Shown piece by piece: positions 29,419 to 45,832 of a stretch of 45,832 nt of DNA. Every line of letters starts with the position of its first letter. Position 1 is the stretch's first letter. A program made the position numbers and the translations under genes. Source of the stretch: Deltaproteobacteria bacterium (GTDB lineage Bacteria > Desulfobacterota > DSM-4660 > Desulfatiglandales > HGW-15); the NCBI GenBank assembly GCA_019310525.1, contig JAFDEE010000038.1, positions 1 to 45,832 on the forward strand, read 5' to 3'. The notes beneath the pieces are model-generated. The model saw only the letters and a program-made list of their open reading frames with translations, did no database searches and was not told the origin of the DNA.

Positions 29419-29480
29419 TTTCCCTCTTTTATCCTCGAGATCCTTACAGCCGCGCCTCTTGTCCACGAAGGTCACGGTCC

Positions 29481-29677
29481 ACATCCAGGCAGGTCTTCTG
29501 ACTCTCGGATCATCCTACTTGCCGCGCCTTCCCATCAACCGCCCCGGGCATCTCCCAGAATGGCCGGGCGGATCAAGACAGTGGCACTTATGCGGCTTTC
29601 GTCCCCGATTACAGCGGCGGGCCCGCCCCCGATTCTCACGGGGTTCCCTGTTAGGCTCATAATGAGCACCTGAATGT
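29481..29677 (-). promoter_or_regulatory. Cobalamin riboswitch controlling the cbiK-cobJ operon
   Basis: The minus strand carries the class RF00174 consensus pieces in order: aacagggaaccccgtgagaa, ggcgggcccgccgctgt, agtgccactg, gggaaggcgcgg and gagtcagaagacctgcc. Closing stem P1 pairs acattcagg (5' end) with cctggatgt (3' end), which defines the 197-nt span. It lies upstream of cbiK with an intrinsic terminator in between. Coverage of synthesis and uptake genes fits feedback control by adenosylcobalamin. Confidence 0.95.
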
Positions 29678-29774
29678 ATTTTTCTCTATAACAAGAAACC
29701 CCGGTCGAAATCAATTGAATTCTGACGGCTTCGTGAAAAGCCCGAAGGTCCGCCCTGGATGGTCCCATCACCCC

Positions 29775-30836
29775 CTATTCTTCCTTTTCGGACACCCCGG
29801 CCTCCTTAAAGGTGGCCATCTCGGAGAGAATTTTCGCCGCGGCCTCAATGATGAAAAAGGCCAGTACCGCTCCCGTCCCCTCTCCCAGGCGCATGTTCAG
29901 GTCCAGGATGGGCTCAAGGTTGAGGTGGGTCATCATGGCCCGGTGACCCGGTTCCGTGGATACATGCCCCGCGAACATGTACCGGCTGACACCCGGAGCC
30001 AGGGCTGCGGCCACCAGGGCTGCGGCCCCGGAAATAAACCCGTCCACCACGACGGGTATGCCGCTGGCAGCCGCTCCCAGCATAACCCCGGCAAGGCCTG
30101 CAATCTCGAACCCTCCCACTTTGCAGAGCACATCGATCGGGTCTTTAGGGTCGGGACGGTTCAAGGAGATAGCCTTTTCGATCACCCTGATCTTATGCTC
30201 GAGGCGCTTCTCATCGATGCCCGTTCCCCTGCCGGTGACCTCCCTTACCGGCTTGCCGGTTATCACCGAGCAGACGGCGGCGCTCGGGGTGGTATTACAG
30301 ATCCCCATGTCCCCCGCGGCCACGATGTCAAGGCCTCTTTTCACCTCGGCCTCCAGGACCTCGATCCCGGTCTCCAGGGCCGCCAGGGCCTGCCCCTTGG
30401 TCATGGCCGGTCCCAGGGCCATGTTTTTCGTGCCCCTGTCGATCCTTCTGGACAGGAGCGCGGGGTGGGGCGGGATATCCGTGGCAACCCCCATGTCCAC
30501 GACCACGACCCGGGCACCCGCATGGCGGGAAAGGACGTTGATACCGGCACCACCATTAAGGAAATTGAGCACCATCTGGGCCGTGACCTCCTGGGGCCAT
30601 TCAACGATATTCTCCTCGATCACACCATGATCGCCTGCCATGACAATGACGGCCTTCTCTCTTATTACCGGCCGCTCCCTCCCCTGGATGCCGGCCAACC
30701 TGATGGAAATCTCCTCCAGCCTTCCCAGGCTTCCCTGGGGCTTAGTGAGTTGGTCCTGACGAATCCTGGCCCTTTCCATGGCCTCCCGGCTGGGTTCCTT
30801 GATGCTCGAGATGGTTCTGTCCAATTTGTCGGCCAT
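29775..30836 (-). CDS. cobT: Nicotinate-nucleotide-dimethylbenzimidazole phosphoribosyltransferase
   Basis: CobT transfers phosphoribose from nicotinate mononucleotide to a lower-ligand base, giving alpha-ribazole phosphate for the nucleotide loop of cobalamin. The 353-residue chain shows LTKPQGSLGRLEEISIRLAG, VMAGDHGV, GDMGICNTTPSAAV, and RLGEGTGAVLAF, which holds the catalytic Glu319 (Glu317 in Salmonella). The ATG at 30836 has a gggagga site 7 nt upstream; a longer frame to 30896 is unlikely. It has its own riboswitch and terminator and so is a separate unit from the cbi operon. No bluB or bza gene for making the base is in the window. Confidence 0.96.
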   Translation of the reverse strand: MADKLDRTISSIKEPSREAMERARIRQDQLTKPQGSLGRLEEISIRLAGIQGRERPVIREKAVIVMAGDHGVIEENIVEWPQEVTAQMVLNFLNGGAGINVLSRHAGARVVVVDMGVATDIPPHPALLSRRIDRGTKNMALGPAMTKGQALAALETGIEVLEAEVKRGLDIVAAGDMGICNTTPSAAVCSVITGKPVREVTGRGTGIDEKRLEHKIRVIEKAISLNRPDPKDPIDVLCKVGGFEIAGLAGVMLGAAASGIPVVVDGFISGAAALVAAALAPGVSRYMFAGHVSTEPGHRAMMTHLNLEPILDLNMRLGEGTGAVLAFFIIEAAAKILSEMATFKEAGVSEKEE

Positions 30837-30920: not shown

Positions 30921-30962
30921 AAAAAAAGGGCCCTGGCACATCCTGTGATGAGCCGGAGCCCT
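30921..30962 (-). terminator. Intrinsic terminator of the cobT riboswitch
   Basis: On the minus strand agggctccggc pairs with gccagggccct (11-bp stem with one mismatch and one G-T pair, loop of 14), followed by seven T. It lies between the second aptamer and cobT. The layout copies that of the cbiK unit and implies cobalamin-dependent transcription termination. Confidence 0.82.
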
Positions 30963-30987
30963 TTACCATCGAGTTCCGAGCAGAAAA

Positions 30988-31323
30988 GGCGCCAATAGGT
31001 CTTCTGGCTCTCCCCCCCTTTCGGCGGCCTTCCCATTCCCCTAAAGAGAAACAGTGACTCACAAGGCCGAAAGGGTTCCCCACATCTCCCTTCGGAACCT
31101 TGAAACCTTTGAAAAACGCCCCCTTTTGCTCAATTTCTGCGCCTGCCTGTGCCGGGCCTATCTGCCATTCCAAGGGGCAGGCAGGCACGGCAGACAGGTC
31201 AGACTCAAAATTGAACGTTTTTCAAAGGTCTCACCTTCAGAAAAACGCCCCTTTTTGGAGTGGGGAGGGATCACAGCGGCGGGACCGCGACGGATTCGCA
31301 CCGTCTTCCCTTACATTGGCACC
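30988..31323 (-). promoter_or_regulatory. Cobalamin riboswitch of cobT, interrupted by a mobile element
   Basis: Minus-strand consensus pieces are aagggaagacggtgcgaatc, ggtcccgccgctgtga, gtgagtcactg, gggaaggccgcc and gagccagaagacct. P1 pairs ggtgccaat with attggcgcc over 9 bp (one G-T), fixing the outer limits. Between the ccgctgtga and gtcactg pieces lies a 131-bp element with a 5-bp target duplication (31102-31232). Removing the element and one duplicate leaves 200 nt, almost the length of the intact riboswitch at 29481-29677 (197 nt). The insertion is in a peripheral variable stem, so the core may still fold. The consensus gccactg reads gtcactg here. Confidence 0.88.
31102..31232 (-). mobile_element. 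MITE-like element, copy A, inside the cobT riboswitch
   Basis: The ends are gaaacctttgaaaaacg on the plus strand and, inverted, cgtttttcaaaggtctc. The perfect 5-bp duplication acctt flanks it (31097-31101 and 31233-31237). Internally it holds a GC-rich hairpin module (tgcctgcctgccccttgg type) shared with copy E, but lacks the gaaaattttaacc module of copies C-E. There is no coding capacity. The flanking bases 31233-31258 (accttcagaaaaacgcccc) look like a decayed end of the same family, so this may be a second hit at an older insertion. Confidence 0.87.
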
Positions 31324-31408
31324 TTGTCACCCTTCTTTTGCCGAAATTTCCTACCAGGAGGGGATGGGATTGTCAACAGCTATTTCCCACCCCGGGTCTT
31401 GGCCGATA

Positions 31409-31553
31409 GGGCGTTTTTCAAAGGCCTCAAAGCGTGAAGAAGGGTACCCATGATCTCCCATTCATGATATATACCTAAATTGAACGTCTTTCAAAGGTCT
31501 CATAGCATATGTATATTTTTCAAATCATCAAATTTTGAAACGCTCAATTTAGG
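31409..31553. repeat. Decayed ends of the MITE-like family
   Basis: A right-type end (gggcgtttttcaaaggcctc) lies at 31409-31428. A reversed left-type end (gaacgtctttcaaaggtctc) lies at 31482-31501. A degenerate left-type end (ttttgaaacgctcaatttag) lies at 31533-31552. The segments 31474-31495 and 31533-31553 form a palindrome of about 20 bp. No 5-bp duplications could be matched, so these look like remnants or rearranged copies upstream of the UPF0173 gene and the cobT unit. Confidence 0.6.
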
Positions 31554-34322: not shown

Positions 34323-34577
34323 GAGACCTTTGAAAAACGTTCAATTTTGTTCAAGATCAAGCCACCGGCCCGTAAGGCCTACGCCCCGGAGGGGAAGACG
34401 AAAATTTTAACCATCCCGCTTAGAATACCAAGCGGCAGGCACCATACATTGAAGTATTTCGAGGATTAAACCCTGAGCCTGACGCCGCTTGTCCGCCGGC
34501 TGTCTGGCGGGCTTGTCACGCCGTAGCCATAGCGAAGGCGGAAGATTGGGCAAAAGGGGGCGTTTTTCAAAGATCTC
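34323..34577 (+). mobile_element. MITE-like element, copy C, inserted at the menG start codon
   Basis: The 255-bp element begins gagacctttgaaaaacgttc and ends gggggcgtttttcaaagatc-tc. The perfect duplication accat flanks it (34318-34322 and 34578-34582); the second copy supplies the first two bases of the menG ATG. It contains the gaaaattttaacc/ggattaaa hairpin module with extra inserts and a GC-rich module (tgtccgccggctgtctggcg) shared with 5051-5071. Before insertion, the sequence aagggagtatttcttatacc would have led directly into ATG. The upstream duplicate now gives an ATG at 34321 opening a 29-codon frame to 34410. Confidence 0.9.
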
Positions 34578-38116: not shown

Positions 38117-38260
38117 GAGACCTTTGAAAAATGTTCAATTTTGTCCAAGGGTCAAGGAAGGCGAAAATTTTAACCGCAGGAATACATTGGAGTATTTCGA
38201 GGATTAAAATCTGAGTCTGACGCAGAGATTGGGCAAAAGGGGGCGTTTTTCAAAGGTCTC
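38117..38260 (+). mobile_element. MITE-like element, copy D, upstream of the ASKHA activator gene
   Basis: The 144-bp element runs from gagacctttgaaaaatgttc to gcgtttttcaaaggtctc. It is flanked by the perfect duplication ttgga (38112-38116 and 38261-38265). It holds the gaaaattttaacc ... gaggattaaaat hairpin module with the inner gaatacattggagtatttc fold, but lacks the GC-rich module of A and E. It lies 67 nt before the ATG at 38328, in the 466-base divergent region between nrdJ and the activator gene. The part of that region at 37862-38111 is AT-rich and shows nothing else I can name. Confidence 0.9.
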
Positions 38261-45636: not shown

Positions 45637-45832
45637 GAGACCTTTGAAAAACGTTCGATTTTGTTCAAGATCAAGGAAGACGAAAATTTTAACCACAGGA
45701 ATACATTGAGTATTTCGAGGATTAAAATTTGAGTCTGACCTGTCTGCCGTGCCTGCCTGCCCCTTGGAATGGCAGATAGGCCCGGCACAGGCAGGCGCAG
45801 AAATTGAGCAAAAGGGGGCGTTTTTCAAAGGT
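45637..45832 (+). mobile_element. MITE-like element, copy E, cut by the window edge
   Basis: The element starts gagacctttgaaaaacg at 45637 and reaches gcgtttttcaaaggt at the last base of the window, three bases short of the expected right end. It is the fullest module set: left end, gaaaattttaacc hairpin, ttgagtctgac, the GC-rich ctgtctgccgtgcctgcctg hairpin, then the right end. The bases before it are aaaga (45632-45636), so ctc then aaaga should follow beyond the window. It lies upstream of dnaE. Confidence 0.88.

Follow-up and report, generated by a model that had tools for sequence, protein, structure and literature searches.

Repeats and inserts are tolerated at the periphery of several functional molecules, examples being the palindromic elements of Rickettsia, the short repeats that certain cyanobacteria have in their RNase P RNA and the intervening sequences of 23S rRNA. 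Variable peripheral arms of RF00174 riboswitches and MITEs are each already known, too. Class I cobalamin riboswitches have a large P6 extension at their periphery, and the P8-P12 extension is treated as a class I feature (PMC11260477). No description of a MITE within a riboswitch aptamer was found in the openly accessible literature that was searched.

The DNA analysed in this work, hereafter called the window, is a stretch of 45,832 nucleotides from a Deltaproteobacteria bacterium (assembly GCA_019310525.1, contig JAFDEE010000038.1). It is practically certain that in this window a mobile element is inserted in the cobalamin aptamer preceding cobT.

The interrupted cobT aptamer

The cobT leader is located on the minus strand between positions 31341 and 30977 and comprises a class-I-like cobalamin aptamer, which is interrupted by a 131-bp element (31102-31232 of the window). 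The features of the locus are the following:

29471-29688, minus strand: intact cobalamin aptamer serving as reference (RF00174, 110 bits), in front of a gene for a CbiK-like chelatase
29775-30836, minus strand: cobT, nicotinate-nucleotide--dimethylbenzimidazole phosphoribosyltransferase (TIGR03160, 477.9 bits)
30921-30964, minus strand: candidate intrinsic terminator (hairpin 30964-30925 plus U-run); the nearest relative has a counterpart of similar sequence and fold ahead of its cobT
30977-31101, minus strand: 3' part of the cobT aptamer (RF00174 search), with GTCACTG at 31052-31058 and the B12 box AGCCAGAAGACC at 30998-31009
31097-31101: target-site duplication ACCTT, copy 1 (5-bp duplications also occur elsewhere in the family)
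31102-31232, plus strand: MITE-like element, an internally deleted copy (most complete copies of the family measure about 143 or 200 bp)
31102-31118, plus strand: left inverted end GAAACCTTTGAAAAACG (family consensus GAGACCTTTGAAAAACG)
31216-31232, minus strand: right inverted end, reading CGTTTTTCAAAGGTCTC on the plus strand
31233-31237: target-site duplication ACCTT, copy 2
31233-31257, plus strand: remnant of the family's left end from an older copy, within the aptamer arm (alignment score 18; repeat D3)
31233-31335, minus strand: 5' part of the cobT aptamer (RF00174 search), with GGGAA, the GGTGCGAATCC block and CCGCTGTGA
31348-31376, minus strand: candidate promoter TTGACA-17-TAGGAA, read from the sequence, immediately upstream of the aptamer

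The element is situated between the conserved block CCGCTGTGA (31271-31279) and the block GTCACTG, both on the minus strand. Its terminal inverted repeats are 17 bp long and match at 16 of 17 positions, the odd pair being G-U in the transcribed sense. Reading of the sequence showed that this copy is without the stretch which other copies have between CTCAAA and AAAATTGAACG, and it is a deletion derivative of the longer family form. Coding potential is not expected in an element of 131 bp.

When the whole window was searched with cmscan, the cobT aptamer was detected with 33.4 bits at 31172-31341, and its 3' end was misplaced within the element. A search limited to 30970-31350 yielded an RF00174 match from 31335 to 30977 with the correct B12 box, a score of 35.8 bits and an E value of 1.2e-7, which is above the gathering cut-off of 31.5 bits. 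Separate searches with the two aptamer halves gave 34.3 bits for the 5' half (a truncated match) and 13.1 bits for the 3' half. In an alignment with five aptamers located near cobT in relatives, the core blocks and the B12 box were invariant. By the RF00174 layout, the arm bearing the element would belong to the P6 extension, the P-number assignment being tentative.

To characterize the repeat family, the 3.78-Mb source genome was searched with the element and some of its flank, which yielded 40 scored copies plus terminal pieces from 285 candidates. An end motif of 14 bases, with one mismatch allowed, had 294 matches in this genome compared to none for the reversed motif. Complete copies start with GAGACCTTTGAAAAACG and finish with CGTTTTTCAAAGGTCTC. 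Exact target duplications were present in 28 of the 46 complete copies read (23 of 5 bp and five of 6 bp), while shuffled pairing predicts approximately 0.55 exact 5-bp and 0.10 exact 6-bp duplications by chance, i.e., about 0.6 together. The nearest copies are 98% identical to the cobT element, which corresponds to a divergence of a few percent. The family thus bears the hallmarks of MITEs: it is short, non-coding and dispersed, with inverted ends and target duplications. No parent transposon or transposase source was seen among the loci read. Matches of the element to Rfam families of animal microRNAs and flaviviruses were low-scoring and were dismissed as chance resemblance to a long hairpin.

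Additional family copies are present in the window at 34323-34577, 38117-38260 and 45637-45832. The last of these, like several others elsewhere, is located at a contig end, and the repeat therefore probably breaks the assembly. Solitary ends of the family, either relics or parts of damaged copies, were observed at 31412-31428 and 31485-31501, upstream of the candidate cobT promoter.

Next to the element, the stretch 31233-31257 (ACCTTCAGAAAAACGCCCCTTTTTG) aligned to the left end of the family with one gap, two mismatches and a score of 18, whereas the best of 5,000 shuffles reached 13. Of the window pieces listed, those attaining a score of 18 lie around further copies of the repeat. The cobT arm thus held a 25-bp family remnant beforehand, which makes the insertion a nested one, and the newer copy entered the ACCTT of the older remnant. 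Another nested case was noticed on contig C77 of the same genome (L007:1490-1660), where two left ends in the same orientation are about 40 bp apart.

The initial annotation, made from the sequence of the window, had placed a mobile element of 131 bp with an ACCTT duplication between the same two blocks. This placement is exact to the base, and copy number, inverted ends and target duplications bear out the mobile nature of the element. The outer parts had been taken for a cobalamin aptamer, and the covariance model did not reject them (35.8 bits for RF00174). Nor is the 131-bp stretch conserved in relatives, the cobT aptamer of the nearest one having a 32-nt arm at this place, and the site does lie in a peripheral arm of variable length, as had been proposed. 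The statement that removal of the element restores an aptamer of 200 nt, compared to 197 nt for the intact one, follows from the coordinates; the figure of 200 nt counts the remnant at 31233-31257 as native.

Predicted fold and expression platform

In the transcribed sense, the RNA of the element was predicted to form a single closed hairpin (-68.4 kcal/mol; z score -7.9), and no shuffled sequence was as good. The minimum-energy fold of the aptamer including the element (-156.1) differs little from the added values of the aptamer (-86.8) and the element (-68.4), with the pairs outside the element essentially unchanged. Judged by the ensemble, 93% of the pair probability of the aptamer is retained when the element is present, compared to a mean of 78% with 100 shuffled elements; nine of these 100 preserved it equally well. 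These calculations cover secondary structure, while tertiary contacts and the ligand pocket lie outside them.

The idea that the element had hit the point of least disruption was rejected, as its site ranked 110 among 204 sites in silico. The site is thus unremarkable, and secondary structure alone does not account for its choice. This bears on the proposal of the initial annotation that the element was accepted because it folds as a hairpin. The prediction bears out the self-contained hairpin. The hairpin as the reason for acceptance has modest support: shuffled elements disturb the predicted fold more than the genuine one, but the site is no better than most others. A better wording is that the element was tolerated in the P6 extension, a reading based on five separate cases described below.

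The terminator-like stretch 30964-30921 downstream of the aptamer folds at -27.7 kcal/mol and has a U-run after the hairpin. The nearest relative (genome G003; CobT 64% identical) has a similar terminator-like hairpin at the equivalent place in front of its cobT. This relative also has TTGACA followed by a similar ATCCCATC upstream of its cobT aptamer. A consensus promoter scan gave no call for TTGACA-17-TAGGAA in the window. The hairpin of the element has no trailing U-run and was not called as a terminator by the automatic scan. Together, the conserved candidate terminator and the intact core favour a retained response to B12.

Repeats in other cobalamin aptamers

Five RF00174 matches were found in the source genome (G000), and two of these five aptamers carry the family. 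The second one is located on contig C16 (L054:1506-1880, about 62.7-63.1 kb), where a family copy cuts the match short, leaving 37.7 bits only. The insertion lies in the loop between GCCACTG and GGGAAGGC, which is a different peripheral loop from that interrupted in front of cobT. After removal of the element and six flanking bases, the C16 aptamer aligned without a gap to a paralog on contig C44. The alignment has 208 columns and about a dozen substitutions, and the paralog thus reads as a clean empty site. The target duplication is imperfect (CGGAT / AGGAT, with one extra base). Downstream of the C16 aptamer are a gene for a protein with an AraC-type helix-turn-helix domain and then another cobalamin aptamer (C16:63729-63923).

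High-copy repeats were also found in cobalamin aptamers of three relatives. The cobT aptamer of G003 (contig C79, L022:2670-2936; 38.2 bits with RF00174) contains a repeat of about 121 bp in the GCCACTG loop. This repeat ends in GGTTGCTCAAAAACG and TTTTTCAGCAACC, is self-complementary and has 40 scored copies in G003; it has no clear direct target duplication and no detectable similarity to the repeats of the other three genomes. In G018, a 141-bp repeat occupies the GCCACTG loop of an aptamer, and in G062 a 167-bp repeat directly follows the GGGAAGGC arm, both repeats being high-copy in their genomes. The G062 and G018 repeats have common ends, and an internal core is common to both of them and the C16 copy. 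In all five insertions, which come from four genomes of one order, the conserved aptamer blocks are intact. A genome closer than G003 with an uninterrupted cobT aptamer was not found in the contig scan.

Long aptamers of G023 (L115) and G063 (L126) and one arm in G057 (L118) were rejected as repeat insertions, given that no second copy was present in their own genomes. The 72-nt arm in G057 (contig C26, L118:301-676) is rich in TTGAATAG/TTAAATAG units and occurs three times in near-identical form on this contig, which may be read as riboswitch duplication. In six further loci (L110, L113, L116, L119, L124 and L125), the GCCACTG arm is closed by complementary stretches of the GCACTCAAC / GTTGAGTGC type around a variable interior, perhaps representing a separate long-arm type.

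A rough count that takes some 150 copies, about 1 kb of aptamer and non-coding DNA of an assumed 0.45 Mb predicts about 0.3 aptamer insertions compared to the two seen, a mild excess which is not to be leaned on. Similar repeats are present in side parts of other B12 aptamers in the same genome and in three relatives, and such arms therefore appear to be tolerated landing sites.

Fate of the switch and relation to known systems

The following course of events is proposed. The cobT riboswitch received a MITE-like element by transposition, in a peripheral arm of its P6 extension and within the older family remnant, with duplication of ACCTT. Upon transcription, the element would pair end to end and add a long hairpin to an arm of naturally variable length. 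Since its two ends are complementary, the hairpin would form out of the way during transcription, and the ligand-binding junction would still be able to form. As the hairpin is added to a length-variable arm, the switch most likely still folds and turns off cobT when cobalamin is plentiful. We infer binding and regulation from these features, and a switch that still responds to cobalamin is fairly probable. The joint claim of a MITE insertion in the aptamer arm and retained switching is, on the whole, probable. The long hairpin could slow folding or shift the transcription timing needed by a terminator-type switch, and the cobT locus rests on one fragmented assembly.

It is rather unlikely, yet a serious alternative, that the insertion broke the switch by abolishing either ligand binding or coupling to the terminator, leaving cobT constitutively on or off and the aptamer as a recent, still undecayed wreck. 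Inserts of such size can disturb co-transcriptional folding. The 98% identity to the nearest copy marks the element as young, so that the core may be intact for no other reason than the recency of the insertion. Moreover, the 13.1 bits of the 3' half alone and the total of 35.8 bits, barely above the cut-off, would fit a damaged aptamer. This low score is in part the cost of a 131-nt insertion, however, and the cobT aptamer of the relative does not score much better (38.2 bits). Conserved blocks, B12 box and candidate terminator are all intact, and the sparing of the core by five insertions in four genomes suggests that interrupted forms persist. An element recruited for a function in the switch or the leader, such as stability, pausing or folding rate, so that insertions into arms are favoured and not merely tolerated, is very improbable. 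The presence of the family in two of five cobalamin aptamers of one genome would agree with recruitment, as would the same kind of place held by other repeat families in relatives, and in the C16 copy end positions 3 and 4 are changed together with their partners on both arms such that pairing is kept. Such paired end changes were discarded as a specific sign of selection on the RNA, as they also occur in copies outside riboswitches (L180, L181 and L182). With around 150 copies per genome, one or two in aptamer DNA exceed the rough expectation only slightly, and the element is not conserved at the cobT locus across relatives.

An assembly artefact, in which a repeat was wrongly joined into the aptamer, can hardly be believed, even though the draft genome consists of 158 contigs and repeat copies lie at several contig ends. 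On either side of the element stand the halves of a single aptamer, correctly ordered and spaced, and there is a target duplication. The internal deletion of the cobT copy is absent from the other copies looked at, and for the comparable insertion on C16 a paralog with an empty site exists.

In more general terms, we lean slightly towards the view that mobile repeats which form hairpins have a general safe harbour in the peripheral arms of cobalamin riboswitches and that transposition is thus a source of new arms. The view draws on five insertions in four genomes, one of them atop an older piece of its own family; the repeats of three genomes are related, and that of the fourth lacks detectable similarity. 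Riboswitches vary greatly in the length and sequence of their peripheral arms, with extra sequence of mostly untraced origin; here an identifiable transposition within the aptamer catches one such source in the act, and a second case in the same genome has its empty-site paralog. The natural insertion series also allows one to ask what load of foreign hairpin is compatible with switching in a ligand-sensing RNA. As standard annotation shortens such aptamers or places their end inside the repeat, interrupted riboswitches are probably undercounted.

The cobT leader resembles class I cobalamin riboswitches (RF00174; P6 extension P7-P12) in its conserved blocks, the B12 box, the associated cobalamin gene and a downstream terminator, which is a candidate here. 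Arms of the P6 extension vary among members of this class, whereas in the cobT leader one arm consists of a transposed repeat on an older remnant, which brings the aptamer to about 340 nt. With bacterial MITEs the element shares its short length, the lack of coding sequence, inverted ends, 5-bp target duplications, high copy number and internally deleted variants; unlike them, several copies lie within folded regulatory RNA. New in this work are (i) the second family-bearing aptamer (C16) with its empty site; (ii) high-copy repeats in aptamers of three relatives; and (iii) the nested insertion at cobT. In contrast to the Rickettsia palindromic elements, the RNase P RNA repeats and the 23S rRNA inserts, the host of the repeat is in this case a ligand-sensing switch.
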